Both the position numbers and the translations under genes were made by a program. Under the pieces are notes generated by a model that did no database searches, was not told where the DNA came from, and was given only the letters and a program-made list of their open reading frames with translations. From positions 186,001 through 250,000 of the forward strand of contig JACVTC010000071.1 of the NCBI GenBank assembly GCA_016946835.1: a stretch of 64,000 nt of DNA. The letters run 5' to 3'. This DNA is from Neocallimastix lanati (nom. inval.). Taxonomy: Eukaryota; Neocallimastigomycota; Neocallimastigomycetes; Neocallimastigales; Neocallimastigaceae. The first letter of the stretch is position 1. Each line of letters opens with the position of its first letter. Shown here in pieces: positions 5,013 to 58,670 of the stretch.

Positions 5013-8000
5013 ATGGAAGAATCAAATATCTTCGATACTGCTAATCTGATGGATGGATTCGCTGGGGACAGAAAGTATCTTAAGGGATTTCTTGCCAAGA
5101 TGGAGCTTATCTTTCTTTTATATCCTGAAAGGTTTCCTGGAGATGAAGATAAGGTAGTATATATTATCTCTCGCTTCTACGGTAAAGCTATGAATTGGGC
5201 AGCTACCTTGATAGAACATCGTGATCCATGTCTTAGTAACTATGAAGCTTTTATTGGCCGCATAAAATCTTTTTTTGGGAACTCTGATGCTACCTATGTT
5301 GCAAACCAAATGTTAAGAAATATACGCCAGAGGAATCTAGGGGGAATTCAAGGATATATTTTAGAATTCAACAAGTATGCTGACGACTCAAATTGGAATG
5401 AAGAAGCAAAGATGGATGCCTTTATTGCTGGATTAAATAACCAAGTTGCTACCAAGATTATTGAAATATTCCCAGGACCCAAAAGCTTACTTGCTCTTCA
5501 AACTATTGCTTCTCGTATTGATGCTAGACTATCTACAACCCAAAAATTTCAAAGAAATAGACAATCTTATACCAGTAATAGGTTTTCTACTTTTAAAAGA
5601 AATAGTACAAACAAAAAATCTAGTAATAAACAATTTTATGGATATCTCTCAAAAGAAGAAAAAGAATATCGTAGGAAAGAAATTTTATGCTTATATTGTG
5701 GTTCTCCTACTCACTCTATTAAGGATTGTCCTAAAAGAACTAATAAAGATGAATCTTCTTCAAGTACTACCTTAGTTTCAAAACCTCTTTCGAATTCTAC
5801 TCTTAATCAAGTCAATAACTCCGAATCTTCTCAAAGTCTTTTCAATTTTATTCTTGGATTCAATAGCTCTTCTATCCCAGTAGATATATTAGTAGATTCT
5901 GGTTCATGTTATAATCTTATTGATGAAACCTTTGTTAAAAATAACAATATTCCTACTACTTCCATTGATAATACTCACAAAATCCGTGGTATTGGTGGTA
6001 TTCAAACTCTTTCTCTGCAAACAATTCCAGTTACTCTCAAATACTCTAACCACCGTTGTATTACTTCTTTTTATGTTACTAATTTACCTTCTTGTAATTG
6101 TATTCTTGGATTCGATTGGTTAAAGACTCATAATCCGTCTATTGACTTTGCCAATATGAAACTCCTCTTTAACTCAAATTATTGCAACTCTAATTGTCTT
6201 GTAATTCCTTCTTCTTATCCAGTAACTCCTTGTGAACAATCTTCTACTAATAAAGCTAATATTAAGATTTTTACTTCTTTCCCAATTTCTAACACTTCTT
6301 CTAGCTCTAATTCCTCCTCATACACTACTGATTTGGAAACTCTATCTAAGAAACTCCCAAAAGAACTTGTTGAGTATATTGATGTTTTCAACGAAGCTAT
6401 TGCTAATGTCCTGTCTCCTCACAGACCTTATGATTGTGAGATTAAAATTAAAGATGACGGTAAACTCTATTATGGTCCCATATACCCTCTTACTGCCGAA
6501 GAATCTGATACTCTTGAAGAATATATTAAAGAAAACCTTGCAAAAGGGTTTATAAGAAAATCGAAATCTCCAGCTGGCGCTCCGATCCTCTTCGTACGAA
6601 AAAAGAATGGAAAACTCCGTATGGTTATCGACTACCGGCGGTTAAATGAAATCACAATCCGAGATTCATACCCTCTTCCGTTGATCAATAATATGCTTGA
6701 GAGTTCAGGTAATGGTAAGATATTCTTAAAGCTGGACCTGAAATCGGCTTATAACCTAATTCGGATTAAAAGTGGTGATGAATACAAAACTGCTTTTACT
6801 TGTAAATTAGGTCATTTCGAGTACATTGTAATGCCTTTTGGACTCAAGAATGCTCCCGCGGTCTTTCAACACTTTATAAATGACATCTTTGAAGATATTA
6901 TTGGCAAATTTGTATACTGTTATATCGACGACATCATTATATTCTCTTCAGATTACTCTACTCACGTTGAACATATTAAAGAAGTTCTCTCGAGATTAAG
7001 AAGTTCTAATTTGGTCGCTACTTTAGAAAAATGCGAGTTCTTTGTTCCCTATATTGATTTTCTCGGTCACCGCATCTCTGCTGAAGGTATCAATATGGAT
7101 CCAAGTAAAGTTTCTTCCATCCTGAATTGGCCCATCCCGAAGAATATTAAGGAACTTCAATCGTTTTTAGGTCTTGCAAATTACTACCGTCGCTTCATCC
7201 AAGGTTTTGCTATGCTAGCACATCCTTTACATAAACTTTTAAGAAAAAATGTTACTTTTAGGTGGAATAATGAACAACAAGAAGCCTTTGATGCCTTGAA
7301 ACATTTTTTACCTCTGCTCCTGTGTTAATTTTTCCAAATCTAGGTATTCCTTTTGTATTAGAAACAGATTCCAGTAATTTCGCAATTGGTGCTATTCTTT
7401 CTCAAGTCTCTCCATCCGATAATAAACTTCATCCTATAGCTTATTTCTCTAGATCTCTTCTTGGTTCTGAAAGAAACTATCCGATATACGATAAGGAATT
7501 ACTTGCTATTGTTAACTCTTTAGAACATTGGAGACACCTCCTCAAAGGAACTTCAGAACCTTATACTATATACTCTGACCACAGAAATCTACTCTTTCAA
7601 AAAAAGCCTGAAAAGATGACTCAGAGATTGGTTCGTTGGTCACTTTTTCTTTCTGAATTTAACTTTATTATTAAATATCGCTAAGGTTCTTCAAATGGCA
7701 AACCGGATTCCCTTTCTCGCCGTCCTGATTATATTTTTTCAATTTCTTCTGATGATGTGCCTTTCACAGTACTTAGACCAGAAAACTTTTGTGCTGTTGC
7801 TACGTCGATTTCTTCTTTTAGTGATGAAATCCTTTCTTCTTATAAATCTGACGAATTTTATTACAATATTTGTAACTATTTAGATAATCCTAAATCTCCA
7901 ATTCCTCATCCACAAATAGATAAATTTACTATAAGTAACAGTTTCCTTTTATTTAATAATAAAATTTATATCCCACCTAAATGCCGTTCTTTCATCCTCA

Positions 8001-9247
8001 AGATTTGTCATGACTCTCCAGCTGCAGGACACTTTGGTATTAAGAAAACTTCCTCCCTCATATCTCGCGATTTCTGGTGGCTCTCTCTCAATTCTGATGT
8101 TGCTGATTATGTTCGTTCTTGCGAAACTTGCTCTCGTTCAAAGCCTTCTCGTCATAAGCCTTATGGATTCCTTAAACCTCTTGCAATCGCTGATCGTCAT
8201 TGGTCATCTATTTCAATGGATTATATTACGGATCTCCCTTCATCTAATGGGTTCACATGTATTCTTGTTGTTATTGATCGATTAACTAAAATGGGTCATT
8301 TTATTGCTTTTGCTGGTATTCCTTCTGCTGAAGAAACTGCTATTGCTTTCATTAATGGTATCTTTTGTCTTCATGGACTTCATACAGAAATTATTTCCGA
8401 TAGTGATTCACAATTCACTTCCAAATTTTGGAAAGCTGTTTGCCAAACTTTATTTGTTGATCTTAAATTTTCTTCTCCCTTTCACCATCAAACGAACGGC
8501 CAAACAGAGAGATTGAACTCCGTTATTGAACAATATTTAAGATGTTTCTTTAACTATAAAGGAACCAATTGGAGTAAATTTATAAAGTTAGCTGAATTTA
8601 GTTACAACAATGTAATCCAAGAATCTGCAAAACAGTCACCCTTTTTCTTGAATTATGGTTATCATCCCAAATATTCACCTGTTATTCGAAATCAAGTTAA
8701 TGTTCCAAGAGCTGAAGAATTTACCAGAAATCTAAACTAGTTAATAGAAGAATTAAAAGTAAATCTAAAACAAGCAAACGAAACACAGAAGAAATTTGCA
8801 GACAAATACAGAAGCAAACCACCCGATTTCAAAGTTAATGACAAGGTTTGGTTAGATAGTTCTCTAATACTTCACTCTGGTAATAAGAAATTTAATCCTC
8901 GCAAATTAGGACCTTTTAAGATAATGAAGAAAGTTTCTGAAGTTTCGTTTAAATTGAAACTACCTAAAAACATTAAAATTCATCCTGTTGTGCACGTATC
9001 TAGTTTAGAACCCTATTACAAAGATAATAAATTTAAAAGAAAGCAATCTCCTCCACCTCCAATTATTGTAAATAATAATGAAGAATACGAAGTCGAAGAA
9101 ATCTTGGATCAACGAAAACATTACGGAAAGATTCAGTACCTGATAAAGTAGAAAGGATATCCTCTAAGTGAATCGTCATGGGAGCCCGAAGAAAACTTGA
9201 ATTGTCCTGAACTTTTAAAGGAGTTTAAAAACTCTCATAAATATTAA
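5013..9247 (+). pseudogene. gypsy-1 gag-pol with C-terminal chromodomain (broken)
   Basis: The start ATG is at 5013. The order of domains is Gag, a zinc knuckle CX2CX4HX4C at about residues 226-239, and protease with DSGS at about residue 293. Reverse transcriptase follows, with MPFGL near 606 and YIDD near 637, then RNase H and an integrase with an H/H/C/C finger, D, D and E residues. A basic tail leads to a chromodomain (VEEILDQRKHYGK, then KGYP and SWEPEENL). The reading frame is lost in a T run at about 7303-7308, where one base is missing. Stops follow at 7682 (TAA), 8738 (TAG) and 9149 (TAG); the last replaces the chromodomain tryptophan before KGYP. In an intact relative the chromodomain guides integration to marked chromatin. 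Confidence 0.88.
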
Positions 9248-10639: not shown

Positions 10640-13600
10640 TTATTTAAAAGAAAACTCGATTTGCGAATTCTTTAATTTTGGTCTATTAACAGATTTAGTT
10701 AAAATGTCAGCTAGCATATTCTTTGGTTCAATATATTTTAGTTTAATAATGTTTTTAGATATATAGTCGTAGTTGAAATGATATTTGATTGAGATATGTT
10801 TTAATTTTGGATTTAGATTACCATTTTCCATAGATTTAATACTTGCAGTGTTATCTGAATAAATTGTAATTGGTCTTGAATATCTGAATAGTTCATATAA
10901 AATATTTTTAATCCATAAAATCTTTTTAATACAAATTGAAGTACTAATGTATTCGGCTTCAGCAGTAGAAGTAGCAACTATTGATTGCTTCTTAGACATC
11001 CAGCATATTGGGTTATTTCCCATGAGAATAATATATCCTGAAGTAGATTTCTTGTCCTTAATGTCACCGGCAAAATCAGAATCTGAGTATCCTAAAATTT
11101 CTCCTGTTCCATTATAACTTAATTTATAATTTTTAGTACTATTTAAATATTTCATAATGTTTTTAACTTTTACCCAATCAGAGACTGTCGGACTTTCTGA
11201 ATTCCTTGCTGCTTTGTTAACTGCAAAGGCTATATCCGGTCTTGTACACTTAGATAGGAATATGAGCATTCCTATAGCACTTTTGTAAGTGGTTTCATCA
11301 AAGGCTTGTTTATTTTCAGAAATTTTATTATCTCCCACACATGGAGTACTGACTTTCTTTAAATTATTTATATTAAATTTGTGTAAGATATTGTTTATAA
11401 AATGAATTTGAGATATTTTATAATTGAAATTATTGTTTTCAACTTTTATACCTAAAATGAAGTCTATTGGTCCTGATTTTGATATTTTGAAATTGTTTTT
11501 AATTTTATTAATAATGCATTTAATTTCTTTTATTTCTCCCGTAATTACCATATCGTCAACATAAAGTCCAATTAAGCATACCAGTTTATTGTTGACGATT
11601 CTTTTAAATAAACATTTTTCTGAGGTTAATTGTTTGAAACCTTGATTAATTAAGAAACTAGAAATGGTGATATACCATTGTCTTCCGGATTGTTTCAAAC
11701 CATATAATGCTTTGTTGAGCTTCCAGTATCCCCTCCCAAAGTTAGTATCTCCGGGTGGAATTGTAGTATAAATATCCTTATCAAGGTCAGCATTTAGATA
11801 AGCGGCTTTAATGTCTAATTGATGAATGGGCCAATGAAATTTTGCAGAAAGAGAGAAGATCAATTTTAAACAATCGATGTTGAGTGTAGGAGAGAAAGTA
11901 AGTTCAAAGTCTATGCCATATTTTTGATTGAAACCTCTGGCAACTAGTCTTGCTTTCCATTTAGTAATGTTACCTTCACTATCAGACTTGCATGCAAAAA
12001 CCCATCTGGTAGTAATGATGGTTTTACCTTTTGGAACAAATGGGACAAAAGTCATGATTTTATTGTTGTATAGATTGTCTAGTTCTTCAGCAATAGCATT
12101 TTCCCAGCGAGAGTGGTCCTTACAGGTAACAGCCTGGTGGAAACTAGAAGGGACTTTAAAATTAATGTTACAAATGGTTTTAGTGTTAAAATTAATTTTT
12201 CTAAATTTATTAAATACTTTTTGAGAGGTTGGACTAAGTGGTCTTTTAGATCTGAAGGGGTGTTGAGCATTATAGTTATTATAATAAACATTATTAATAT
12301 CACTGTTAAAAGGTTTAAAAATAATTTTATTATTTGAATCAGAAGAATTATTATTATGTAAATTTTTGTATAAATTTAATCTACTAAAAGTAAAATTTTT
12401 AATATTGAAATTTGGTAAATTATTGGAGACGTTTTGATTATTATCAATAATTAAATTTTTAACACTTCTTCTTTTATTAAAAATGGACTTTTTGTTTACA
12501 TTTTGTTTATTTGAATTGTCTTTAATGTTTATTGTACTATTTTCATAAATATTATTATTATTATTATTATTTAAATTATTGTCCGAATTATTATTTTGAT
12601 TATTATTTATTTGTATATTATCATTTGTATTTTGTAATATATTATTAGAATTATAATCACTTATATCAAATAATTTATTAATTTTAACATCTAAATTAGG
12701 TAAAAAATTATTGTTATTTGCATTATTGTTTATATTGAAATTTTTATTAGTATTGTCTTTATTTTCATTATTTAATTTATTATTAATTAAAAGATTTTCA
12801 TTATTTGATTTTTCATAGTTAATTATTGAGTTTTTATCATTTAATATATTATTTCGTGAAAAATTATTATTATTTAATATATTGTTTGAAAAATTTTTGT
12901 TATTATTAAATGGGTTATTATTATTTAAGGTTTGATTAGAGTTCTGATTTATTAAATTTTTATCAATTAAGGTTTGATTAGAATTTTGATTTATTGGATT
13001 ATTATTAATTAAGGTTTGTTCAATTTTTGAATCAAAATTTGAAAAATTTTTATTAATAAAATTTTTTTCACGAAAATTTTCATTTTTATTTTCATAGTTA
13101 TTTGATTTTTCTTTGAGTGTAGTGTTTTGTGTGTTAATATTGGTATTATTTTTATTAGAATTAGACTCGTTTAAACTCTTCTTATTATCTATTTTCAAAG
13201 AGGTTTCAGAATTTATATTTATTTCTTCATCTTTATTATTAACATTGTCTTTAATATTAACGTCAGGATTATCACTTGATTTATCAGAAATTAAAATAAT
13301 TTTTTCATTATTTAATTTCATTTTCATAATTTTCATAATTATTCTGAGTAAAATTATCATTTAATTCTTGTTCATTACTATTCTTGTTTGTGAAATGAAA
13401 ATCGAAATTAAGAAAATTTGGGTCATTAAATTCATTTTGGTGAGTATTGGGGAGTCTTAAACTTGAAGGAGTATCTTCTAGACAATATATTTCTCTCACA
13501 TGGTGTATTTTATGATCTTCATAATCCATGATTATATAGCAATGTGAGTTTTGATTGAAACCAAGAAATATACCTTTTTTAGCGTTAGGAGAAAATTTTC

Positions 13601-15977
13601 CCTTATTTTGTGAAAAATCTTTATAGTAAGTAATGCATCCCCAAACTCTCAGATACTTGATATCTACCTTTCTTTTATAATATATTTCGTCAGGAATCTT
13701 ATTACCTATTCCACTATGAGGCATTTTGTTGTAAATGAGATTAGCATATGTAATTGCATAATCCCATAAATTATCACTTGTTTTACTCCAAAAGATTAAA
13801 GTTTTAGTACTTGAAATAATAGTTTGATTAAAACGTTCTACTAGTCCATTATTTTCAGGATTATAGGGAGGTGAATATTCTTTACTAATACCATTTTCGC
13901 TGCAGAATTTTTTAATTCGAATATTGTCAAATTCTTTTCCATGATCTGATTTGAAAATTTTAATGTTATTCTTGTTTTGATTATTTAGAAATTTTAACGT
14001 ATTTATAACGATGTCTATTGCCTCAGATTTTCTTTTTAAAAGAAATATCCAACTCTTTCTGCTATATTCGTCTATAATAACTAGGATAAATCTATAACCA
14101 TTTACAGATTTGTTTACAGGACCCATAATGTCTGAGTGGATTATTTCTATGGTATCGGAGGCTTTTGGTGTTTCTTTATTGTGTGGATTTCTTCTCATTT
14201 TTGCAATTTTACAATCATTACAAAAATTTTCATCCACATTATGTAACTTTAAGTATTTATTCAGGTCTTTTGTGTAGTAATGACCTAGCCGTCGATGCCA
14301 AATTATTTCTTTGGCACTTCGAAAATTTTGCATGGCCATTATATTATTGCTGTTTTCTATAGGTTCGTTATTTTTATGATTATAATGATTAGGTGGTATA
14401 GCTGTGATATTTATTTCATTTCTTTTGTTTGCCTGAAAAGTTGCAACGGTTTTGTAGTTTTCATCCAAAAGGCTCATGATTACTTCATTGTTTATTTCTT
14501 CAATGAGCACTTTTGTTCCTGTTCTGGCGAATTCAATACCACTAATCATATTTTTCGCAACGTCTTTTGAATACAGAACCCTTTTTAATTTAATATAGTG
14601 ATTGTTGACCTTAAAATCATACTCGCCATATCCTTCGAAGTCGCAATATGTATTATTGGCACATTTTAAAGTAACTGGATCATTAATGAAATTCTTTAAA
14701 ATGTTTTTATTATTAGTTATATGTTCTCCGGCTCCAGAATCATATAACCATTGTGTTTTTTCATCTTCGTTTATATGAAAAATATTATTTAATGAATTTA
14801 AATATTCTGTAACTCTAGGAACCTTAATTTCTGATTGTTTTGAATTAATACAACTATTATTGTTTACTTTTTCTTCATTATTATTACTTAATTCATAAAT
14901 TTTGTCACAGAAGTTTATTAAACAAGTTGATTTCATATTTTCACTAGTATTTTGATCATTAGATGTGGATGGTCTATCAAGATATGGTCTAATTTGGTCA
15001 TAGTTTACTTCATAATTATATTCATTATTTAAATTAGCATCATTTACGTAACCAATATATCTCTTGCTGTTATATTTTTTATTTCTATTGTAATTTTCAT
15101 TATTACCCTTTTTATTTTCATTATAGTATTTATTAAATTTGCTATTCGGGTTTTTCGGGTTAAAATAGCATTCTTTTGTGTCATGATTATTCATGTCACA
15201 AATATAGCAATATTTATCTTTTTCTTCTTTACCCTTTTTGGTATTTCTCTCATGTTCTTTGTTATTGCTATCATATTTTTGTGTTTTATTAATTCTTCTA
15301 TTTTGTTTTCCTTTACCTTTAAATTTTCCAGCGTAGTCGATATCCATTGGGTCATCATGAGTTTCTTCCTTAGTAGTGTTTCCCCAATTATTAAAGTAAT
15401 TCCATAATTTCAAATCTTCTTTTATTTTATTATATAGACTATCAACTGTTATATCACTATCTAAGATAAATTTTGATTTGTAGCTTGTTGGTAAAGCACG
15501 TAAGAAATATTTTACCTTTTCCTTTTCTTCCATGGGTGCTTTTGCCTCTTTCATATTACTGAAAATTTTAATCATTTTCTTACAGGCAGTTGGTATTTCA
15601 TTTTCGGTTCTTGCTTTTATTGTTGTGAGTTTATTAATTCATTGAGTAAGGTCATTGGCTTCACTGTTATATTCAGTTTTTAAAGATTCTATAATAGCTG
15701 AGGCTGCTTCAATGCCTATGATATCCTCATGGATTTTTGGAGTAATTGAATTTATTATAATTAAACGTACTCTTTTGTTTTCTCGTTTAGCTTTCTTAAT
15801 GGCCTCAATATTAGTTGGGTCATTATCATATAATTCTTGAACAACATCCTTTTCGAGATATTCTTCTAGCTCTAGTTGTTCAACAACAGTATTGATGGAA
15901 TCATACCAGATTCGATAATTTGATCCATTTAAGAATTTATTACTGCTTATGATATTTTCATTATTATTTATCGACAT
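10640..15977 (-). pseudogene. copia-1 gag-pol polyprotein (one stop, one frameshift)
   Basis: The first ATG is at 15977. Domains in order are Gag, a zinc knuckle CX2CX4HX4C near 15195, protease with LYDSGAGEH near 14735, integrase with an HHCC finger near 14210-14320 and D, D, E residues, a long Asn-rich linker (about 12250-13400), reverse transcriptase with YVDDM near 11555, and RNase H. A TGA at 15639 falls where a Trp is likely (before INKLTTIKAR). The frame changes once at 13308-13360, at the start of the linker, needing a +1 step. Everything else is open, which fits the nearly identical LTRs. The product would make virus-like particles and copy and integrate its own RNA. Confidence 0.9.
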
Positions 15978-16015: not shown

Positions 16016-19115
<3,100 letters not shown>

Positions 19116-23309: not shown

Positions 23310-23327
23310 TTTTAACAATTATTTTAT

Positions 23328-23401
23328 GCCATGTTGGTCCAGTCGGTTAGGACGATACAGGTCACTGTAGAGGGCGGGGTTCGAATCCTCGGCATGGCAC
23401 C
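23328..23401 (+). other. tRNA-like head of the SINE (Asp-like, with encoded CCA)
   Basis: A 7-bp acceptor stem GCCATGT/GCATGGC closes with one G-U pair. The D arm is GTCC/GGAC. The T arm has a 5-bp stem with loop TTCGAAT, followed by discriminator A and a genomic CCA. The A box (TGGTCCAGTCGG) and B box (GGTTCGAATCC) are intact, so Pol III transcription is plausible. The anticodon arm TACAG-GTCA-CTGTA has a 4-base loop instead of 7, so it cannot be a working tRNA. GTC suggests an aspartate tRNA ancestor. Confidence 0.8.
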
Positions 23402-23772
23402 AAATAATCGGATGAGGTTTCTATCCTGGGATATCATGAGACCACACGTGATGTCCATAAGGCTTTCCCTCAGATGATTATTTCACCCAACCCTGATACT
23501 ACGCTTTGAATTGAAGCATAGACCTTGATGATTGTAAAATTTCCAATCGCCAATGATTACACCCACTAGGGAGGAGTTAATGGTTCCATTCTGATGCTCG
23601 TGGTCATTAGAGATATATGTAGGAACGTTAGGAATGCATCTCCGGGCAGTGTGTAACGACGATTGAGAGCGGCGAAGCTGATACAGTATGCCAATAACTC
23701 ATCACCTTACAGTTAATTAATAACTGTATGGCCATATGGGAGATGGGTACCCATATGTGCAAGTCTATGTTT
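23328..23772 (+). mobile_element. tRNA-derived SINE, full-length copy
   Basis: This is a 445-bp element, clearly richer in G and C than its flanks, with an 18-base target duplication TTTTAACAATTATTTTAT at 23310-23327 and 23773-23790. The 5' part (23328-23401) is a tRNA-like head. The body (about 23402-23690) has no coding frame. The 3' part has two hairpin sequences (near 23712 and 23730-23755) and a short T run. A second copy lies at 29421-29826. Long duplications and 5' truncation of the sister copy point to LINE-driven copying. No LINE is present in this window, so the partner must lie elsewhere. Confidence 0.88.
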
Positions 23773-23790
23773 TTTTAACAATTATTTTAT

Positions 23791-28748: not shown

Positions 28749-30357
28749 TGATATGCGGGACTTTTATGTGCTACTAATTTTTAATAGTATCGTTATATTT
28801 AATTAACCTTTATTAATATATTTTAATTTAAAAACCCAATTAACCAAGGGTCTTCTCTAAACTACAATCAAGAAGAGTAGTTATTAGGAATCTTTATAAT
28901 AATTTAATTATTAATAATAATAAATATACATTTAAAATATATTATATCGGAGTATAGTATAATATAATAAATATACATTAAAATAATAAATATAATAAAT
29001 ATAACTATATAATTCTTAAAATGAAAATAAGAATAATAAAGTTAAATATATAAGAATATAATTATATAATAAATATGAATATAATAAATAATATCAACTA
29101 TATATATTTAATTATAATTAAAATAACTAAAACCATTTCATTATATATATATTATAATATATAGAAGTATTATGTATTTTTAATATAAATTTTAAAATAA
29201 ACATGAATAGTTAAGTTATATATATAATATTCTTATTATATATATTTAGAAGAAATTAACTATTTAATTTAATATATTTAATATATTTCATATTATAATG
29301 AATAATATATATATGAATATTGAATAATATATGAATTAGAAATTATTTCAAATATTATTATTGACAAAATAGATATAAATTTAATATTTAATAATTATTA
29401 TTAAATATACAAATATGTTAAAACATAGACTTGCACATATGGGTACCCATCTCCCATATGGCCATACAGTTATTAATTAACTGTAAGGTGATGAGTTATT
29501 GGCATACTGTATCAGCTTCGCCGCTCTCAATCGTCATTACACACTGCCCGGAGATGCATTCCTAACGTTCCTACATATATCTCTAATGACCACGAGCATC
29601 AGAATGGAACCATTAACTCCTCCCTAGTGGGTGTAATCATTGGCGATTGGAAATTTTACAATCATCAAGGTCTATGCTTCAATTCAAAGCGTAGTATCAG
29701 GGTTGGGTGAAATAATCATCTGAGGGAAAGCCTTATGGACATCACGTGTGGTCTCATGATATCCCAGGATAGAAACCTCATCCGATTATTTGGTGCCATG
29801 CCGAGGATTCGAATCCCGCCCTCTACATATACAAATATGTTACTACACATATTTGTTTTATACTTTTATATCAGAAATGCCCTCGCTAAAATAGCTGATT
29901 ACTGGTGAAATTGAAATTTATCTCTATACGAGAACAATTCTCAATTGAATCTGTAAATTAGCTACAAATTCAATAATAAGTTGAAATGATCATAGTTCAA
30001 ATAAGGAAAAATATAAAATTAAAAGAAATTTTATATTTTTGTGAATAATTATTAAAATATGTATTAATAAAAATTAATTGTATTATTTGAAAATTTTATA
30101 AAATTTTTAACTCAATTTTTGAAAATTTTTCATTAATAAAAAAAATTTTTTTTTTTTAAAATAATTATATATAATTTTGATATTATAATAATTAATATAT
30201 ATAATTATTAATAATTAATTTTGAATTTTAATTTGGAAATTTATTTTGAAATTTTGAAATTTCAATTTCGAAAATTTAAAAATAAAATTAATTATGAAAT
30301 ATATATAAGTTAAATGTCCTATTAGCATAAATATGAATAATATTTTGCTATTTTAAC
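28749..30357 (-). repeat. LTR-like segment of gypsy-B, left side, carrying a SINE
   Basis: It starts TGATATGCGGGACTTTTATG, matching the edge of the right LTR-like segment at 36257. A second shared block runs 29340-29420 and 29843-29870 (against 36540-36640), with the SINE inserted between. Beyond 29870 the similarity is lost, so the inner border (a possible TTTTAACA end at 30357) is uncertain. No gene is seen in 29843-30450. Confidence 0.45.
29421..29826 (-). mobile_element. tRNA-derived SINE, 5'-truncated copy
   Basis: Read on the minus strand, it matches 23367-23772 with about two base differences by eye. The first 39 bases of the head, including the A box, are missing. A 16-base target duplication ATATACAAATATGTTA flanks it at 29405-29420 and 29827-29842. 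The same sequence occurs uninterrupted at 36605-36620, followed there, as here, by CTACACATATTTG. This is the expected pattern of target-primed insertion with incomplete reverse transcription. Confidence 0.9.
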
Positions 30358-30450: not shown

Positions 30451-33400
30451 TTATTCTCTATAAGGTAGGATATTTTTAATATGGATATTTCTTTTTAATA
30501 TTACTCCTGACCTATCTTCTTGTAGTTTCACCGTATTCCAAGTTATTTCCTTTATCGTATAAGGGCCAATGTAGTATGGGTCTAATTTTTGTCTTTGAAA
30601 TAATTTAATCTTTACCTTATCACCAACTTTATACTCAGGAAGTTTTTCCATACTTCTTTTCGCTTTTCTTCTAGTCTTCCAATAATTAATTGTACCTAAT
30701 TTTTTGTTTGCAGCATCCTTTACCCATTTAGTATGTTCCAAAATTCTTTCAATTAATACTTCGTCAATTGAGCATTCAACAGGTTCCTCCAAAGAATTCA
30801 ATAAGGTAATTTCAGTAGGAAGTAAATCTTCTCTTCCATATAACAGTTCAAAACTAGAGTATCCACTAACAGAGGATTTTGCCGTCCTTATAGCCCATAA
30901 AGCCAACGGTAACAGAGTATCCCATTCGTCGTTCTTACCAGCAAAATTCCTTAATTGTTTTCCTATTTCTCGGTTTCTATTTTCCACTAAACCATTAGAA
31001 GGTGGATGATAATTGGCAACAAAATGAATGTAAACTCCATATAAATCTAAGAAAATTTTTGTATAATCACAGTTCAATTGTGGTCCATTATCCATATTAA
31101 TTATTTGGGGTAGTCCATGCCTACTAAACACATTCACTAAGAAATCAACCACATCTTGCGAAGTAACAGAAGGATAAGCTTCTGCTTCAGTCCATAAAGT
31201 GAAATAATATACACAAACAATTATATATTTATTACCTTTAGTAGTAGTTTTTAAAGGTCCAATAATATCTAGGCCCATTCTAACAAAAGGAGCTTCTACA
31301 GGAGTTCGAAATATTTCAACCAAATTAGAAAGGGGTTCAGATCTATTAAGTTGACATATTTTACAAATAGATATATATTTTTTTATATCTAAAATCATAT
31401 TTTTCCAATAATAATTTTTCTTAATTCTATCATACGTCTTTTGTAACCCTCATGGCCGATTCTATGAGCCATTCCGATAATTTTTATCTTTTCTAGATAA
31501 TCATCTTTCACTAGTCTTAGTTTATCTTTATCTCTAATATATGTTTTATCATCTATAGTAACAATTCTATCTTTTAAAAACTTTTTCATGAATTCAGAGA
31601 TATATTTTTCATTTTCGGCTTCATCCAAAAAGTTTGATTGGTCATTTTCATTATTGTTATTACCAATAATTTCTACGTTATTTTCATCAACAATATTATT
31701 ATTATTTTCAATATTGTTTCCTAAATTATTATTATTTTCTTCAACAATAACATTTACTACAATATTTTCTTTTTTTCTAATGCGAGATAATGCATCAGCA
31801 ATAATATTCCTTTTCCCTGGTTGGTAGACAACTTTTACTTGTAGTTGACTGAATAAATCACACCAACGAGCGTGTTTACTAGTATTAGGTTCGCATTTCA
31901 TAATGATAGGGACTAAAGGTTGATGATCTGTATACAGTATTGTCTGGAACGGATTACCTAATATATATTGTTTAAATTTATTTACACAAAAATATGCCGC
32001 AGTACCTTCTAACTCTGTTATTGGGTAATTAAGTTCTGACTTATGCAGGGAACGACTAATATAAAATACTGGGTGTTCTACTTCATCATTATATAGTTGC
32101 AATAAAACACCACCAATTCCTTGATAACTAGCATCAGTGCGTATAATAAATGGTTTATCATAACGTGGATAACACAAAATAGGTGCTTGACAAAGAGCTC
32201 CTTTAATTTTTCTATACTAGTAGTATGCTCATTAGTCCATTCAAAAGTAGAATTTTTCCTTAGTAATTTGCATAACGGGGAAGTTAATGTAGCATAATTT
32301 TCAATAAAATTCCTATAGTAACCCACCATTCCAAGAAAAGAACGTAATTCTGTAACATTAGAAGGATTATCCAATTTCTTTATTGCATCAATCTTCTTCT
32401 CTAGTGGTAATAATCCTTTGTTTGAAATCGTATGTCCTAAAGCCTCCACTTCAAAAACACAAAAATGACATTTCTCAATGTTCATTTTTAATTTAAATTT
32501 TCTGAGAATTTTAAATACATTTGTTAGGTCGATTAAATGTTGTTCAATGGATGGTGAACAATAATATCGTCAAGATAAATTTGAACACATTTATTAATTA
32601 AGTCAAAGAAAATCCTATTCATTTTGCATTACCTTAAAGTAATAATTTCCAAATTTAGTTGTAAAAGAAGTAATTTCTTGGTCGCTTTCATACATGGGTA
32701 TCTGGTGATACCCACTAAAAAGATCAATAGTAGAAAATATTACTGCATCTTTTAATGCATCAAAAATTTCTTGAATTATAGGGATGGCATAAGCATCTTT
32801 TTTTGCTATTTTATTTAATAACCTATAATCTATGCACAGTCTCCATCTACCATTTTTCTTTGGTACTAAAACAATAGGTGAAGACCAAGGTGAATGAGAA
32901 GGTGAAATTAATCCTTTATCTATTAATTTTTTTAATTCTTCTTTTAGTGCTGAAAGTTGTACCAGGGAGATCCTATATGCCTTTTGTTTTATTGGCTTGC
33001 TACCTTCTAGTAATTCAATATGGTGAGGTAGCAATTTGGATGGTTCTAAATCATCACTAGATATAGCTATTACATCTGAATATGAAGTTAATATGGATTT
33101 AATTTCATTTTTAAAGTTTCTATCTTTGATATCCATATTGCTAATTAATTCTTCCAAAATTTTATTTTTATTAGTTGTATTAATTTTATTGGTACTAATT
33201 ACTTTATTAATACTAGTATTTATTCTCTAATATATAACAAAACATACACTGTGTATGAAGTTCATGCACATCTTCTAAAGGAACCAATGGGACCGCACTA
33301 AAGGTAAACACACCATTAACATTATTAATACCACTTTTTACGTATAAATATTTACTATCTGCATCTACTAATAATTTATAATCTGCTTGAGTTTTTAAAT

Positions 33401-34147
33401 TAATTATTATATCAAATATTGAGTCATCATTATCAAATACTCTAAAGACTGCATTAATTTTTAGAGTACCAATTTGTACTTCTAATTTTACTATTTCATA
33501 AACACGTTCTTCCGTATTAGATAATGCCTGATGCACTCTACCAGAAGTAGAACCAACTATGGTATAATTTTTAATATTTTTATTTAGAAAATTTCTGGTT
33601 ACCAAATTTGTATTACTACCACCATCAATTAATACAGCAGCAGAATGACCATTAACCGTACCATTGACAATAGCAATATCGTGTTCTTGAATTTCTCTTG
33701 TAGCGTAGCAATGGGTAGGATTATTTACTATTTCAAATTCTTCTATATCATTATGATATTCTGCACATCCTACCACTGCATCATCATCCTCAGTTCTTAC
33801 TTTTTTAAAACTTTTAGTGATATCCGAACGTAGGGCACTACTTATACCTATTAATTGGGCCAAAGTAATATTTACTGGGGTATTTTGTAATTCTTCTATA
33901 ATATCATAAGGTTCAATACCCTCTAATAATTTAATGATTTGGCCTACCCTAGTAGTTTTTTTTTTCTTATTATTTTGTTCCAATATTTTTGTACTATTAT
34001 TTTTATCGTTAAATTTATTACCAATATTAGATGCAGGTATATTTAATTCCACTGAATCTATGTCAATTTTGTTTTCCAATGTGCCATTTTTATTATTATT
34101 TTTATTATTTTTATTATTATTATTATTATTATTATTTATATTATTAC

Positions 34148-34181
<34 letters not shown>

Positions 34182-35686
34182 TGTAGTCAAGTTGGATGTA
34201 TCATTATTGATATTATAATTACTTGAATTATTATTAATTAAATTTTCATTAATATTATTATTACTATTATTTTCATTATTATTATTGCTTCCTTTATTAT
34301 TAATATTATTCTTAATATTATTATTTAAATTTGGTTTTAGAATTTTACGATTTCGTAAATTGTATAAGATATTATTGTTAACATTATCACTTATATTTAA
34401 ATCGTTATTGTTATTTTCATTTATATTGTTATTGTAATAGTTATTATTTATTTTAATATTATTATTGTTGTTATAATTTCTTTTTGCCTTAGGTAGAGAT
34501 GCATATTTTTCATCTCTACTACGTTTTGCTGCAGCAATAATTGCATCATAATTATTGTTCCATGTTGCTGCAGTTATTACTGGAGAAGTGGCAATTTGAT
34601 TATGGGAAGTTTGCCTTCTTCCATCATTCATTTTTTTTGTAAATTAAAATAATTTATAAAATTTGGATCTTGTTTAATTTTGGCTAATTCAGTACAATCC
34701 TTAACAAGATGACCAGGTTGGTTACAGAAATAGCATGTTTTAATCTGTAAACTCTGCATTCTATTTACCAAGTCATCCATTCCATCATTATTAGGTATTT
34801 GATTGTTGTTAATTTTATAATTATTATTGTTTCTATTATTTAAATAATTATTATTTATATTATATGGATTATTAATTCCATTATTATTAAAATTATTTAG
34901 CATATTATGATTATTTCTATGAATGGGATTGGGAGGTATATTCGTGGGAGTATTCCTAGGGTTTCTAGAGTTTCTACCACTAGTTCTATTCCAAGAATTG
35001 TTATAATTATAACCATTATTATTAGAGAATGAGTTATTATGATAATTATTTCTGTTATAATTATTGGAATACATTCTTTCCTTTTTACTACTTTTATTAT
35101 TATAAAAATTAGATTCTTGTAGAATGCTTTCATATTTTTCAGCTTGACTACATGCATCCTCTAATGATTTGTATTCTTCCATTGCTATTTTCTCATATAT
35201 TTGTTGTCTTGGTCTAAGAGCATTCTCATAGTCAATGACTGAAATTGAAGCTCTGTCTTCATTATCTAATAAATCATATAAATTCAAATATCTAGTGTTA
35301 AAATCGTAGACAGTTTCTCTTGGCTCTATAGTCATACGTTTGAACTGTCTAAGTTTATCTTCCTTTTTATTCTCTCGCCAATATTTCTTTTTGATGACTT
35401 CAACACATTCATCTAATGTGTGAGTTTTACCTAATTCATTTTCTTTCATTTTCAATACTCTTACTAAATCATCTTCTGCGGAAGAGATAATATAACTAAA
35501 CTTATCTTTGTTGGTAGTTATCCCTTCTCTTTTAAACCATTGTTCGATTCGGAACTGCCAGATCTCCGCGTCTCTTTGAGGACCACCTATCCTTGGAAGA
35601 GTCTTTGTATCCGACATGGTTTTGTTAGTACTACTATTATTATGTTCACTACTGCTACTACTACTACTACTACTACTACTTCTCAT
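30451..35686 (-). pseudogene. gypsy-B gag-pol, nearly full length but broken
   Basis: Gag starts at 35686 with a poly-Ser run and carries a zinc knuckle CYFCNQPGHLVKDC near 34700. A second long frame (33213-34631) is Asn-rich and ends in a protease with LIDGGSNTN, where DSG is usual. Reverse transcriptase follows (VDYRLLNKI on the 32615-33157 frame, YLDDI near 32570). A small deletion near 32615 removes the segment after VM that normally carries the PFGL..NAP motif and breaks the frame. RNase H (RTDASYQGIGGVLLQ) and integrase follow. Integrase has D, D and E residues near GLDIIGP, MDNGPQ and VENRNREIG, and a GPYTI motif near its end. Another frameshift lies near 31425. Confidence 0.88.
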
Positions 35687-37382: not shown

Positions 37383-40300
37383 ATGGGGTCTCTCCCTAAA
37401 AACTGATAATATTTTAGAAAGTTTAAGTTATAAAAAATTTAAACATCTACTTATAAAAATTTTTGGAGATACGAAAGAGCAGAAATACGCTCTTATCGAT
37501 CAATTATTGGAGTTAAAACAAAAACATTTAGGTAAAGCTACCTTTTATACCATTGAATTTAGAAGGTTGTCAAGGAGGATCGGATGGCAAGATAATGTCC
37601 TTATAGACTTAATAAGACGTGGATTAATTGATGAAGTTAAAGAAGAATTTGACAAGGTAAAAAATAAACCTCAGACTTTATTTGAAGCTACCAACAGGAT
37701 AATTGAAATTGATAAAAGATGTCTTTTGAACTTTTGAATAATAAAATAACCAACAGTCATATTAACAAATTTAACAAAAAATCAACGTTCAGAATGAAAA
37801 GACATGAGCTGAACAAGAACGATAAAAAAGCATATAATCATTTCAAACATAACTAATTAAGAACTAAAAAGAAAAATTTATTATCAGCAAATTTCACACC
37901 CAGTTTTACAGGAAAAATGACTAATACTTTTACTATATCCTTCAACAATAAGCCTTTAAAAATAAAACTCATGATAGACTTCGGATCTGCTAGAAGCTTT
38001 ATATGTAAAGACTTTGTAACCGCTAACAAAATACCAGTTTCTGGCCTCCCTTCACCAATAAATATCCAGCTACCGAATAATAAAAATATGAATATTAAAC
38101 AAACAACTAAAAGTCTTCAACTTCAATTTATGGATCATAAAGAAAATTTTGAATTCTGTGTAGCAAATCTTCAACTCCATGGAATCTCAGGAATTCTCGG
38201 AAGAGATTGGCTTAATATCCATAAGCCATATATTAACTTTGAAAATAATTATATTTACTTTTTGGAAAAATTCTGTTCTGATCATTGCCCTTCCTCCAAA
38301 GGAAACAAATTCATGTTACACTCTAAAGAAATAACTGCATCTATGGTACCCGAGGCTATCCTTACTAACGATTCGATCTTTTCTGAAAGCAACGTTGAGG
38401 AAGATATCTCTGACGGTGATTTGTATGCTGTTATGGTAGATAATATCAAGCAACAAACAATGGAAGAAAAAGAAGAGATAATCAATAAATATTACTTAGA
38501 ATTTAAGATAGTTTTTGAGACACAACAAGCTGACAAATTACCAAAGCACAGAAAGTATGACATGTCGATAGAACTCATTCCCGGAAGTCAATTATATTAT
38601 GGTTCAATATACTCACTAACTGCAAAGGAATTAAAAGCACTTAAAGAATACATAAAAGAAAATCTGAAAAAAGGCTTTATTCGGAAATCAAAATCTCCCG
38701 CAGGCGCACTTGTTCTTTTTGTTATGAAACGTGACGGAACACTACGTCTTTGCGTAGATTATTGAAAATTGAATGCGATAACTATTCGCAATAGTTATCC
38801 AATTCCAAGAATAAGTGATCTAATTGAATGTTTCAAGGGTGCAATTATATTTACGAGACTTGACTTAAGGTCTGCGTATAATCTTATACGCATCAAAGAA
38901 GGACAAGAATATCTTACAGCATTCCGCACACCATTGGGTCATTACGAATATTTAGTTATGCCCTTTGGATTACGCAATGCTCCTTCTGTGTTCCAGAGAT
39001 TCGTTCAAGATATATTTTCTGAAGTTATTGGGAAGTTCGTACAGGTTTACTTAGACGATATAATTATCTACTCAAGTAACAATACCAGTCATATTGATCA
39101 TGTTAAGACAGTTTTGAATCTCTTAATTAGTAATGGACTCTATGCAAAGTTAGAAAAGTGCGATTTCCATGTGAAATCCACAACATTCCTAGGATTCACT
39201 GTCTCATCTACAGGATTAATAATGGATGCAAGTAAATTAAACTCAATATTAGAATGGCCAACCCCAACAAATATCAAAGATTTGCAAAGCTTTCTCGGTC
39301 TTTGTAATTATTATAGAAAATTTATAAAAAATTTTGCCAAGATAATGGAACCTCTAAGAAATTTATTATAGAAAAATGTAACTTTTATTTGGGATGAATC
39401 TAAAGATGAAGCTTTCAACAAATTAAAGTCTGCTTTTAAAGATAATGAATTTTTAATTTTTCCTGACCCAGAGAAGGAATTTATACTGGAAACAGATGCT
39501 AGTGATTATGCTGTCGGTTGCGTATTATCACAAATTTATGACAAAGATAAATTACTCCATCCAATTGCATTTCACTCAAGAGCACTAAATAAAAATGAAA
39601 TAAATTATACTATATACGATAAGGAACTCTTAGCCATCATCGTTGCATTCGAAACGTGGAGACATCACTTGGAAGGTGCCAAATATCCCGTTCGAATTAT
39701 AACTGACCATAAAAACCTACTGTATTTTAGGAAACCTCAAAATCTTAATCAACGCCAGGTTAGGTGGAGTCTATACTTGTCAAAATTTGATTTTAGAATA
39801 TCTCATAGACCAGGAGAAAATAGTGTAAAACCAGATTCATTATCCAGACGCCCCGATTATAGAAATAAAGTTCCCAAAAACGATTTCAATCCAGCTGTTC
39901 TTGATGATAATATTTTCTGTTGCGCTTCTGTTGAAAATATAAGCTTACTTATCGACGCCCAGAAGAAGGATAAATTTTGTAAAAATACTATGGAAAAGAT
40001 TTATGATAAATCTTCAAATAAAGTTAATTCATCATTATTCACCCTTGTTGATGGAGTTTTACACTTCCAAAAAAGGATTATTGTCTAATCCTCTCTTAAA
40101 CATAAGGTGCTCAAATCTTTTCACGATACTCCTACAAACGGACACCAAGGTATTGATAAAACTCTCGAAAAACTTCGGAGATATTATTGGTGGCCGAACA
40201 TGAAAATTACATTAAGTCATGTATCACTTGTGGAAAAAGCAAAGTACGTAAGCATAAACCTTACGGAAAAATACAACCTCTTCCGGTGCCCAGTAAACCT

Positions 40301-43827: not shown

Positions 43828-43884
43828 GATGAGGACATCATAAAAAAGGGAGTTAAAAGTAGCACAAAATTAGGATGATTTTAG

Positions 43885-44058
43885 GTGGTATCTATTTTTT
43901 TATTTTATATTTTATATTTTATATTTTATATTTTATATTTTATATTTTATATTTTATATTTTATATTTTTTATATTATATTTTTATTTTATATTTTATAT
44001 TTTTTTTTTTTATTTTATATTTTATATTTTATATTTTTATTTTTTATTTTTTATTTTA

Positions 44059-44089
<31 letters not shown>

Positions 44090-44640
44090 TATTTTTTATT
44101 TTTATTTTATATTTTATATTTTATATTTTATATTTTTTATTTTATATTTTTTATTTTTATTTTATATTTTATATTTTATATTTGTTATTTTATATTTTTT
44201 ATTTTTATTTTATATTTTATATTTTTTTTTTATTTTATATTTTATATTTTATATTTTTATTTTATATTTTTTATATTTTTTTTATTTTTTTTTATTTTTT
44301 ATTTTATATTTTTTATTTTTATTTTTTATTTTTTATTTTATATTTTTTATTTTTATTTTATATTTTATATTTTTTTTTTATTTTATATTTTATATTTTAT
44401 ATTTTTATTTTATATTTTTTATATTTTTTTTATTTTTTTTTATTTTTTATTTTATATTTTTTATTTTTATTTTTTATTTTTTATTTTATATTTTTTATTT
44501 TTATTTTATATTTTATATTTTTTTTTATTTTATATTTTATATTTTATATTTTTATTTTATATTTTTTATATTTTTTTTATTTTTTTTTATTTTTTATTTT
44601 ATATTTTTTATTTTTATTTTTTATTTTTTATTTTATATTA
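43885..44640. repeat. TATTTTATA-rich satellite with about 148-bp higher-order units
   Basis: The strand is almost pure T and A. The left part repeats TATTTTATATTTTA. From about 44220 a larger unit of about 148 bases repeats three times, each with the same order of T runs and ATATTTTATAT blocks. The long hydrophobic open frames across it are by-products of the lack of stops and are not genes. Confidence 0.85.
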
Positions 44641-44659
44641 ATTATTTTTTATTTTATAT

Positions 44660-44880
44660 TAATTAACTTATTACTTATCTATTTAACTTAAAGTAATTTG
44701 AAATATTATATCAGTTAATTAATTAAATATTATTTTAAATTTTTAAATATTAATAAAACTTATTTTTATAAAGCATATTTCAAATAACTTTCCATTTTTA
44801 AATTGCACTGACCTGTAGTGTTTAATACCTTTCGTAACAAACATAATAAAATATAAGATTTTAATATAACTAAAGATATA
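44660..44880 (+). repeat. segment similar to 42205-42345, LTR-like remnant
   Basis: Both contain AACTTAAAGTAATTTGAAAT or a close variant, then ATTAATTAAT, then AATAAAACTTATTTT..AAA..CATATTT. The shared order suggests remains of a second gypsy-C-type LTR end. Confidence 0.4.
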
Positions 44881-46907: not shown

Positions 46908-49900
46908 TTATTTTTTGTCTTCCATTTTTTGACTTCTTAAGCTATTTATTTTTTCTACATCAATATTTAAGTCAGGATTTATTATAGATAGTGATTGGTT
47001 TTCTACTTTTGTACATTCATTAATTGAGTTTATTATACTCATAGATACATCAGGTTTACTAATCAATTCTTCAATATTTAAATTTTCATTCTTTTTTATT
47101 TCATTAAGTCTGTCTTGTTCTTCTTTTTCATGCTTTAATAATTTTTTAGCATTTTTTTCCCAATTTTCAGATATATTTCTGTATTATAAATATATTTTCA
47201 AAATTATTATAATAATTAATATTTTTAGAAAAATAATTTTATAATATTTAACAAAACATTAATAATATATTATATTATTGAGATTTTCATTATAAAAATA
47301 TAAAGATTTATAATACTTAATAACATCGATTAATTTTGTGATTTTGTCATTAGTTTCTCCTGCTTCAATATAATTTTCACAATCTTTTAATGTTGTATTA
47401 AAAAGATATATTTCTTGCAAAAGTTGTGATAATTCTTTTTCATTTTCATCTAATGCTGTGGTTGAATCTCTTGAAATTTGGGCTAGTACATTGGCCATCC
47501 ATGATAACATATTTTGATTAATTTTTTCATTTTCTTCTTTTTGAAATTCATAGTCAGAATTTAATAATTCTCGGATATTTGAAATCCATGTTGATATATT
47601 TTTTGGAACTTTAATCATATCTGATTTTGATGATACTCTTAGGTTTGCTATTGTTTTTAAAAATATTATTAATTAAAAAAACCTAAAAATAATATTAAAA
47701 TATACTATTAATTTCTACATACAAAGTAAAGTATCTATTTGTGTTTTCCACTGATTAAAATATCCATTTAACATATATTTATCTTTATTTGAAAGTTTTG
47801 ATGTTGGTCCTTTTGATTTCATAGAGTTATACCTATATATATATATATATAATTATATGAAATTAATGATCCAAGCGCTTTGATTATATAAATTTTTTTT
47901 AAATTTATTTTTTTTATTATTAAAAAATTTTATAAAATAAATTACCTGTCTTCAACTTGATTTTGTAAACTTATTACTTGACTTGCAACACCATCCTCAC
48001 CTGTTACTCTTACTTCTAATTTTAAATACCATTCCTTTATTAATTTAATAATAATATTTAGTTTATCAGTAACAGCAATAAATCTTTTTCCATTTGGTGA
48101 TTTTTTTAATTTTCTCAAATAGTTATATGCATATTCACACCATTCTTGACTAATCGATTTTGATAGTTTAATTTTTTCTAAAACAATAATATCTCTATCA
48201 CTTGTAAATCGTATAGAAACTTTAGAGGTCATATTAATCCAATCGTTTAAACTTTTAATTAATACAGAAATATCAAATATATTTACATTTTTTGTGAATT
48301 CTGTTTCATTATCTGTATCACTATAAAAATCAAGATTGTTTTGTAATAAGACTATTTCATGAGATAACTTAGTAAGAACTTCAATATTATTTTCATCTTC
48401 TTCTATAATAGAATGTGAAAGATTTATTAATTCATGACTCCATTCATCAATTTTTTTATCTAATTCATTTAATGATTTATTCTTTTCTTCATTAATAAAT
48501 GATATAATTTGAATTGATGAATATAAACGTGTATTACAATAACTTTGCAATTGTAAAATCTCTGTAAAGCCATGCTCTCTACCAATACGTAATGCCAATG
48601 TGATCGCTAGATTTGTCCATGTTCTTTTTTCATTTTCAGTTAATTTATTATTTTCTTCTAATCTATTTCTTTGCATACGATATAATTTTTGATACTCTTC
48701 TAAAATCAAATCATTACCATCCGATTCTGTAAGAATATTTAATAATTTATTCTGAGTTCTTTCTGCTTGTTCAGTAAATTCTTGATCATGAATTTTTATT
48801 TCATCAATTTCTTTAATTAATTTTAAAATAACTTCTTTTGATCTCATTAATTCAGTCGCTAACCTTTCACTTATTTTATTTTGGGCAATTAATTCTGTGT
48901 GAATATTTAATATATGTTCCGGAATTTTTGAAAACATATTTGAATATCTTTTTCTTAAATAGGAAAGTAATTCCCCTCTTTCATTCATTTGAATTGAGAC
49001 TTGTCGTATTAATTCTTTAAGCACTATATCATATAATTGTTGTTCTTCTTTAACTACTTTTAAAAATGAATTCATGTCAGTTGGATAATTAATATCATTT
49101 CCTTTATTATCAATTAATCCTTTTTTCTCAAGTGATTTTATCATTTCATTTTTTAATAATACTACTTCTCTTCTTGATATAGGGGTTAATACATGATGCA
49201 AATTGTTGTTCTTTAATTAGAAATTGTATTAGAACGAATAATTAAATATTTAGATTAAATTTTTAAAAATTAATAAGTGCTTTTAAAGTTATTTTTTTAT
49301 CATTGTTATTATAATTTCATTTATTATTATTTTTATTACTATTAATTATTAACCATTAATTATTATTATTTATTAATTATTACTAGTTATTAATTATTAT
49401 CATTATTATTAATTAATTAAGTATTATATATTATTATATATTATTATTATTATTATTATTAATTAAATATTATTATAATTATTAATTATTATCTATATTA
49501 AATAATATATATTATTATGTTATTAATATTATTAAAAGTACTATTATTATTATTATTTAAATGAAAGTATACTTCGTTGTCATCATTTTCATTGTTAATA
49601 AGGTTCAATTCTTTTGGATTTAAGCCTTTTGGAATTACAATCTTTGTTAAAAGATCAACTTCATTTTTTGAGTATTTCTGATTATCTGACTTATTTAATA
49701 ATTTATTTGGTCCATCAATTAACGTATTTTTAACATTGATGTTAGAAGTTTCACTAATTTTTGGAATAATTTCATTAACTATGGTTTTAATATGATTTTC
49801 TTGTTTTATTTCATTATTTTCTTTTTCCATTAACACATTACTATTATTGTCTTCTAAATTATTTGAAATATCATAGAGAAATGCTAATTCCTTCTTTAAT

Positions 49901-50445
49901 TTAATTTTTTCTGAATTAGTTTTTTTTTCTTTTGTTAATAAGTATTGAAAAGTAGGCTCTTCAATAGGAGATATTGTATTGTTTCTTTTAATATTTATAA
50001 TTTCTTCTTTATTTGATGAATTTGGATTTTTTATTGATTCATTAAAATAATTCTGATTGTTTTTCAAATTTTCATTTAAATGATCAATATTTTTATTATT
50101 TGATTTTATTAAATTGTTTTTAGTACTTATTTTATTATTTTGTATTGATGATGTACTTATATTATTATTATTTACATTTACAATTTCACTATTTAATGAT
50201 ATTCTATCTATTATATTTGATTTATCATTTTTCAAGACTATTTTTTCATTTAATAATGGAAGTTGACTTCCTTTTGTCTCAATTTTATTCAGTTCAATGT
50301 TTGAATTTCTTTTCTTTCTATTATGATTTCGGATTCTCTTTTTTTTTGTGTTGTTAATAGTGGGATATGCTATTACTTCACCCTCTTTTTCAATATTTGC
50401 TAATTTTTTAATATCATTTAGTAATCCCGTAGGTATAAATGACAT
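46908..50445 (-). CDS. AXDND1-like protein (axonemal dynein light chain domain)
   Basis: I rebuilt this as complement of 46908-47178, 47317-47647, 47723-47832, 47946-49210 and 49573-50445. All introns are GT..AG and every splice phase agrees, giving 949 residues, near the length of animal AXDND1 (about 1,000). The ATG at 50445 begins MSFIPTGLLND. The first exon is Asn/Ser rich and ends with PKGLNPKELNLI. The second starts HHVLTPISRREVVLLKNEMI and carries IRQVSIQMNERGELLSYLRKR, the pattern of the axonemal dynein light chain (p28/DNALI1) domain, followed by long coiled coils. Such proteins belong to the cilium or flagellum. The exon 1 donor was chosen by phase (GTATAC at 49567-49572). The family call rests on recognition by eye; another dynein-light-chain-domain coiled-coil protein is possible. 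Confidence 0.75.
49217..49566 (-). repeat. intron with TTA/AAT microsatellite
   Basis: The first intron of the AXDND1-like gene holds interrupted ATT/TTA repeats. The nearby exon frame can be read through some of them as Asn and Ile runs, but phase requires splicing before that point. Confidence 0.6.
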
Positions 50446-58555: not shown

Positions 58556-58670
58556 TAATAACGAAATAAATAATAAATTTAACAACAATAATATAGTAAA
58601 TAAAGAAAATTATGCCCACAAATCTCTTATAGATGCATCAAGTGTTATTGATTTTAATAATGATGAAATT

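Follow-up and report, generated by a model that had tools for sequence, protein, structure and literature searches.

The window analysed here, a stretch of 64,000 nucleotides, is filled to a large extent by frames of Ty3- and Copia-type retrotransposons (5013-8740, 10640-15575, 17023-17835, 30451-32177, 34628-35686, 37917-38765 and 54707-60332), with gag, protease, integrase, RNase H and RVT_1 or RVT_2 domains. It also holds a gene with a CLASP_N domain (693-1988), for which a protein search returned the gene itself and three relatives 75-77% identical to it, and frames of 263-472 aa (33213-34631, 43875-44666 and 49498-50445) that have no Pfam match at E 0.001. The host, predicted to be a zoosporic fungus, is probably an anaerobic gut fungus: CBM_10 domains in large numbers mark these organisms, and a first look at the genome yielded 1440 CBM_10 candidates, all of the 150 that were scored lying above the cut-off, as compared to none in 14 control genomes. 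The GC content of the window is 22%; for the rumen fungus Neocallimastix californiae, the available part of PMC11003543 gives 18.2%.

The unit under study occupies 445 bp on the forward strand (23328-23772) and is, nearly certainly, a SINE, namely, a full-length copy belonging to subfamily A1 of its family. It is bracketed by a perfect target-site duplication of 18 bp, the left copy (23310-23327) being identical to the right one (23773-23790), just as the original prediction described it; also in line with that prediction, the unit is rich in G and C, with 45% as compared to 22% in the window. The first 72 bases, discriminator base included, form a tRNA-like head (23328-23399), which scores 38 bits against the Rfam family RF00005 (gathering score, 29) and is called by ARAGORN as a tRNA with an incomplete anticodon (tRNA-???), the anticodon loop being short by one base. 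An A-box-like motif, TGGTCCAGTCGG (23335-23346), and a B box, GGTTCGAATCC (23378-23388), are read in this head by eye against what we take to be the consensus sequences, so that the predicted promoter boxes are indeed in place. The head is immediately followed by CCA (23400-23402). That this CCA is a sign of origin from a mature tRNA was considered and set aside, because the older B relatives described below appear, by eye, to have no CCA at this place. Farther downstream, a 10-bp hairpin is predicted (23429-23456), with element positions 102-111 paired to 120-129; its 3' arm coincides with a recurrent 5' truncation point (see below). The body of the unit is short, non-coding and unrelated to tRNA, in agreement with the earlier description: there is no long reading frame, the longest overlapping stop-to-stop stretch being 71 aa, and no Rfam family other than tRNA reaches its own threshold on the unit. 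The predicted fold of the whole RNA is not clearly better than those of shuffled sequences (z -1.12; 13 of 100 shuffles were equal or better).

At the 3' end of the unit, two hairpins are followed by AAGTCTATG and then by a T-run. The first hairpin is ACAGTTA-ATTAA-TAACTGT (23709-23727), the second, CATATGGG-AGATGGGTA-CCCATATG (23733-23757), and both together make up what had been noticed earlier as a hairpin tail; the relatives examined have a second hairpin much like it, which for most of them was the criterion of selection. The terminal motif AAGTCTA (23761-23767) is common to the unit and to the 3' end of one LINE family of the same genome, family A. The T-run (23770-23776) overlaps the right duplication. 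In 55 copies, the run that follows CTATG ranges from 0 to 40 in length, with at least 10 in 26 copies and at least 20 in 16, and part of it may be target DNA; because of this variation, the border between unit and duplication is uncertain by a few T.

A second copy lies in the window on the reverse strand (29421-29827). The predicted identity of about 99% holds, at 99.5% over 407 bp; this copy is, however, 5'-truncated, consisting of element positions 39-445 without positions 1-38. It carries a target duplication of its own, TAACATATTTGTATAT, on the 5' side (29827-29842, reverse strand; its last base doubles as base 39 of the element) and on the 3' side (29405-29420, reverse strand). That only these two copies exist is excluded by the genome-wide counts: in the 199-Mb genome, a 26-mer covering the B box has 299 matches with at most 2 mismatches, and a 32-mer from the tail has 330 matches with at most 3 mismatches, the reversed control giving none in either case. 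Thus, the youngest subfamily comprises about 300 near-identical copies, and these were made recently, as had been proposed: between pairs of the 46 copies that have more than 95% identity and begin no later than base 60, substitutions amount to a median of 0.79%.

The starts of the copies were determined in a non-random sample of 64 distinct copies, made up of the 7 best-scoring ones, 27 loci with an exact match to the head, 28 with an exact match to the tail and the 2 copies in the window. The 27 head loci come from 30 taken in contig order, of which 2 were already among the best-scoring 7 and 1, L026, is interrupted; the tail loci had no exact head match listed nearby. Loci met twice were counted once (L001, which is the window copy, L004, identical with L022, and L006, identical with L019). 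The interrupted L026 was left out of the duplication, start and divergence counts, and L012, with 89.9% identity, was left out of the duplication count. The idea that the tail-selected copies are hidden LINEs was rejected: all 28 loci hold SINE copies, 5 of them with nearly whole heads.

The mode of insertion can be read from the ends of the copies. Under an automatic rule that demands at least 10 bases at the 5' boundary of the element, a target duplication was found in 47 of 55 distinct copies, with a length of 11-19 bp and most commonly 15-16 bp; 8 copies have none by this rule, and 3 of the 47 (L023, L036 and L044) are homopolymer-like and unconvincing. Wherever found, the left copy of the duplication abuts the start of the element, be it truncated or not. 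The copies selected by their tail begin at many different positions, and duplications flank the majority of them. The starts are spread from element position 1 to 301, with 32 of the 64 copies in the non-random sample starting at base 1, and the 3' end is common to the copies; in particular, it is identical in 29 of the 30 loci picked by an exact head match, the thirtieth being the interrupted one. The target duplications, the fixed 3' ends and the 5' truncations taken together identify the insertion mode as target-primed reverse transcription that begins at the 3' end of the RNA. The copies examined have different flanks and different duplications, and the notion that the unit belongs to some larger element whose ends lie elsewhere was accordingly discarded. 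The family numbers hundreds of copies, with duplications that vary, a constant 3' end, truncation at the 5' end and little divergence, and is what it was predicted to be, namely, a recently active tRNA-derived SINE family.

We hold with considerable confidence the explanation that combines these parts. The tRNA-like head would promote transcription by RNA polymerase III, and the transcript would end at the T-run, hence a U tail; a reverse transcriptase, presumably LINE-encoded, would copy this RNA from its 3' end into nicked DNA, in the insertion mode that the copies display.

The original prediction considered fungal SINEs of this size uncommon, a view that does not stand: the available parts of PMC5063351 list MgSINE (472 bp, about 100 copies), Foxy (about 160 copies), nrs1 (500 bp) and AfuSINE2 (140-493 bp). 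Going by their descriptions there, MgSINE, Foxy, AfuSINE2 and SINE2-1_BG share with the present family a tRNA-related head, a non-coding body and target duplications; MgSINE and AfuSINE2 are of similar size, and MgSINE and Foxy have, as here, a copy number of the order of 100. These elements, however, reside in other fungi, none of them gut fungi, and the T-run tail is a feature of the family described here. In this latter respect the family resembles, by description, the plant SINEs Au, p-SINE1-3 and ZmSINE1, which end in T-runs and for which Table 2 of PMC3747384, in the portion at hand, gives no partner LINE, although the tails of Au are T2-5 as compared to runs of up to 40 here. Since SINEs of similar length are on record in fungi, and T-tailed ones in plants, what we describe is, going by published descriptions, a new SINE family of a known kind. 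Among the open-licence papers listed in literature searches, as judged by titles and the beginnings of abstracts, none describes a SINE of anaerobic gut fungi, and none is devoted to SINEs or other mobile elements of gut fungi or of chytrids; the available parts of PMC11003543, PMC8778642 and PMC6416283 describe no such SINE.

Which LINE could supply the enzyme? Two endonuclease-domain searches (PF03372 and PF14529) provided a sample of 16 LINE loci in four families, A (6 loci), B (2), C (4) and D (4), the 3' ends of which were examined. As a general family, PF03372 also has matches in 10 of 14 control genomes, as compared to 3 of 14 for PF14529; in the genome studied here, the endonuclease matches sit in many long open frames, often of 1200-1500 aa. 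One copy of family B encodes both an endonuclease and a reverse transcriptase, and its nearest solved chain is the L1 ORF2. Families A, B and C terminate in GTCTA followed by poly-A, with a possible stem-loop, seen by eye, just before the GTCTA of family C; family D ends in GCCGTT plus poly-A, without GTCTA. Altogether, 15 of the 16 LINE 3' ends are clearly poly-A, the exception being a family A copy, L061, in which GTCTA is followed by G and a short A-rich end. The terminus of the SINE, in turn, reads AAGTCTA-TG plus poly-T. The search for a LINE sharing the 3' end of the unit, which the original prediction called for, brought up 5-7 shared bases in the terminal motif: beyond this motif, BLAST gave no significant match of the unit to the LINE ends examined in the four families, with E 0.2 at best. 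The A1 end has AAGTCTA in common with family A (shuffle fraction 0.003) and AGTCTA in common with family B (0.013); for the SINE B end, five bases are shared (shuffle fractions 0.08 and 0.05). These comparisons were chosen after the match was seen.

The LINE insertions themselves are comparable to those of the SINE in that duplications of 12-15 bp lie next to the LINE start in 8 of the 12 copies with both ends, namely, in 3 of 5 in families A and B (a fourth match, at L060, has no LINE start after it), in 3 of 3 in family D and in 2 of 4 in family C, one of the latter being 5'-truncated. The target sites of SINE and LINEs are hard to compare, because the T and A tails blur the position of the cut. 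By their sequence, the LINEs ending in GTCTA(A)n are candidate partners of the SINE; since the tails differ (T as opposed to A) and the match is short, we take the GTCTA match only as a lead. Accordingly tentative is the attribution of the enzyme to an L1-like LINE of this genome with such an end: it may be right, and we would sooner expect it to be wrong.

A stronger contender, to which we assign an even chance, is that the unit is indeed a SINE and that its partner is an unsampled LINE that starts on U-tailed RNA, rather than one of the poly-A LINEs seen here. The T tail of the SINE, as against the poly-A of nearly all LINE ends, fits this possibility, as does the brevity of the motif that SINE and LINEs have in common; moreover, the SINE duplications start with T at 91% of the 47 sites, a preference that is partly forced by the T tail. 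Unidentified LINEs recognizing poly-U have been suggested for Au and the p-SINEs (PMC3747384, in part). On the other hand, none of the 16 LINE loci from the endonuclease-domain searches has a T tail, and GTCTA occurs in three of the four families. Furthermore, the T-tailed ZmSINE2 of maize is tied to LINE1-1_ZM, an L1-clade LINE with a 3' stem-loop, as can be seen from the available part of PMC3747384, so that a U-tailed LINE is not a necessary partner of a T-tailed SINE. The proteins of stringent-type LINEs recognize a 3' stem-loop, according to the accessible text of PMC4176376. The maize LINE thus belongs to the clade whose ORF2 is also the nearest solved chain for the LINE examined here, but the maize pair shares about 50 nt, whereas SINE and LINEs here share 5-7 nt and not tens of nt.

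The history of the family extends beyond subfamily A1. A hairpin pattern derived from diverged copies found by BLAST has 164 matches in the genome, and the 23 loci fetched for this pattern all turned out to be SINE relatives or fragments. Five of them constitute subfamily A2, with 92-94% identity to the unit, and one of these five has an additional segment at 92%; the remaining ones are B relatives or fragments, roughly 70-80% identical over the aligned part, several of them over a short stretch only. The older relatives have the same layout as the A1 unit, and A1, A2 and B represent successive layers. Some B copies show, by eye, a decayed tRNA head, and ARAGORN found no tRNA in any of 21 A2 and B sequences, which implies that the heads of the older copies have decayed or disappeared. 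The ends of many B copies are T-rich or (TTA)n. In the 14 bases after the hairpin, GTCTA is present in 15 of 19 B copies and in 2 of 5 A2 copies. The conservation of the 3' hairpin partly reflects selection of the loci, because they were picked by it, and pair counts revealed no covariation in it, with no pair changed on both sides. A single suggestive event is the step from an A-U pair in B via a mismatch in A2 to the loss of both bases in A1. At one locus (L100, C268:715900-720400), the hairpin matches recur in a tandem unit with a spacing of about 3.85 kb, and in the two units examined, a SINE B fragment lies a short way downstream of an intact tRNA-Ala(TGC) gene. The arrangement resembles a chimeric SINE headed by tRNA-Ala, a reading that was rejected: two other copies have the same hairpin variant without that head, so we take the locus for a tRNA-Ala gene with a piece of a SINE next to it.

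The internal starts of the truncated A1 copies are not evenly distributed. Among the 16 copies truncated beyond base 76, 9 start at element base 119 or 120 (window 23446/23447), a density equalled in none of 100,000 random placements, and the 3' arm of the predicted 10-bp hairpin begins at base 120. The cause would be either cleavage of the RNA at this point or a halt of the reverse transcriptase. Four more copies begin at element positions 55-58, in the T-loop, where base 57 corresponds to what we take to be tRNA position 58. This tRNA position is often methylated, and the T-loop starts, four copies only, could mark a site of arrest at an m1A58. A truncation point that recurs so exactly yields a testable prediction about the RNA template.

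The start of nine copies at a single hairpin arm inside the element, which might point to a processed RNA as their template, and the tRNA-like fold in the sequence would also suit another reading: the unit would be a gene for a cellular non-coding RNA that is headed by a tRNA-like part, and its copies would be retropseudogenes. This we consider quite improbable, given that the whole promoter-bearing head is kept in half of the sampled copies, that the subfamilies form successive layers and that the Rfam search brought up no RNA family besides tRNA at threshold. That the unit is a MITE-like DNA element or a dispersed satellite, as its high copy number and internal hairpins might suggest, can be dismissed, since the 12 inverted repeats found do not include one that links both ends of the unit, the duplications vary in length and sequence, truncation affects one end only and the tail is of variable length.

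Returning to a SINE mobilized by a LINE, one can envisage a more specific, and rather speculative, scenario, which we think is probably not correct in full. A poly-A L1-like LINE would recognize the terminal GUCUA whatever homopolymer follows and, hence, would mobilize a U-tailed SINE; the SINE RNA would, in addition, be cut or arrested at the hairpin (element 120) and in the T-loop (55-58, near tRNA position 58, which may carry a methyl group), and the insertions would thus record the processing and modification of the RNA. If true, the GUCUA-recognition reading would answer, for fungi, the question of what mobilizes poly-T SINEs, which is posed in the available part of PMC3747384. A young, abundant and well-preserved T-tailed family residing beside LINEs with long frames is a good system for addressing this question.

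Two observations concern these LINEs themselves. In 25 of the 150 scored PF03372 places, the open frame is exactly 1399 aa long, and four such copies (family C) have 3' ends with 95-99.7% identity to one taken from among them; judging from these sequences, the 1399-aa LINEs of family C were probably active recently. At L101:83-221, a very short, 5'-truncated tail of a family A LINE can be discerned by eye, with a long duplication of its own.
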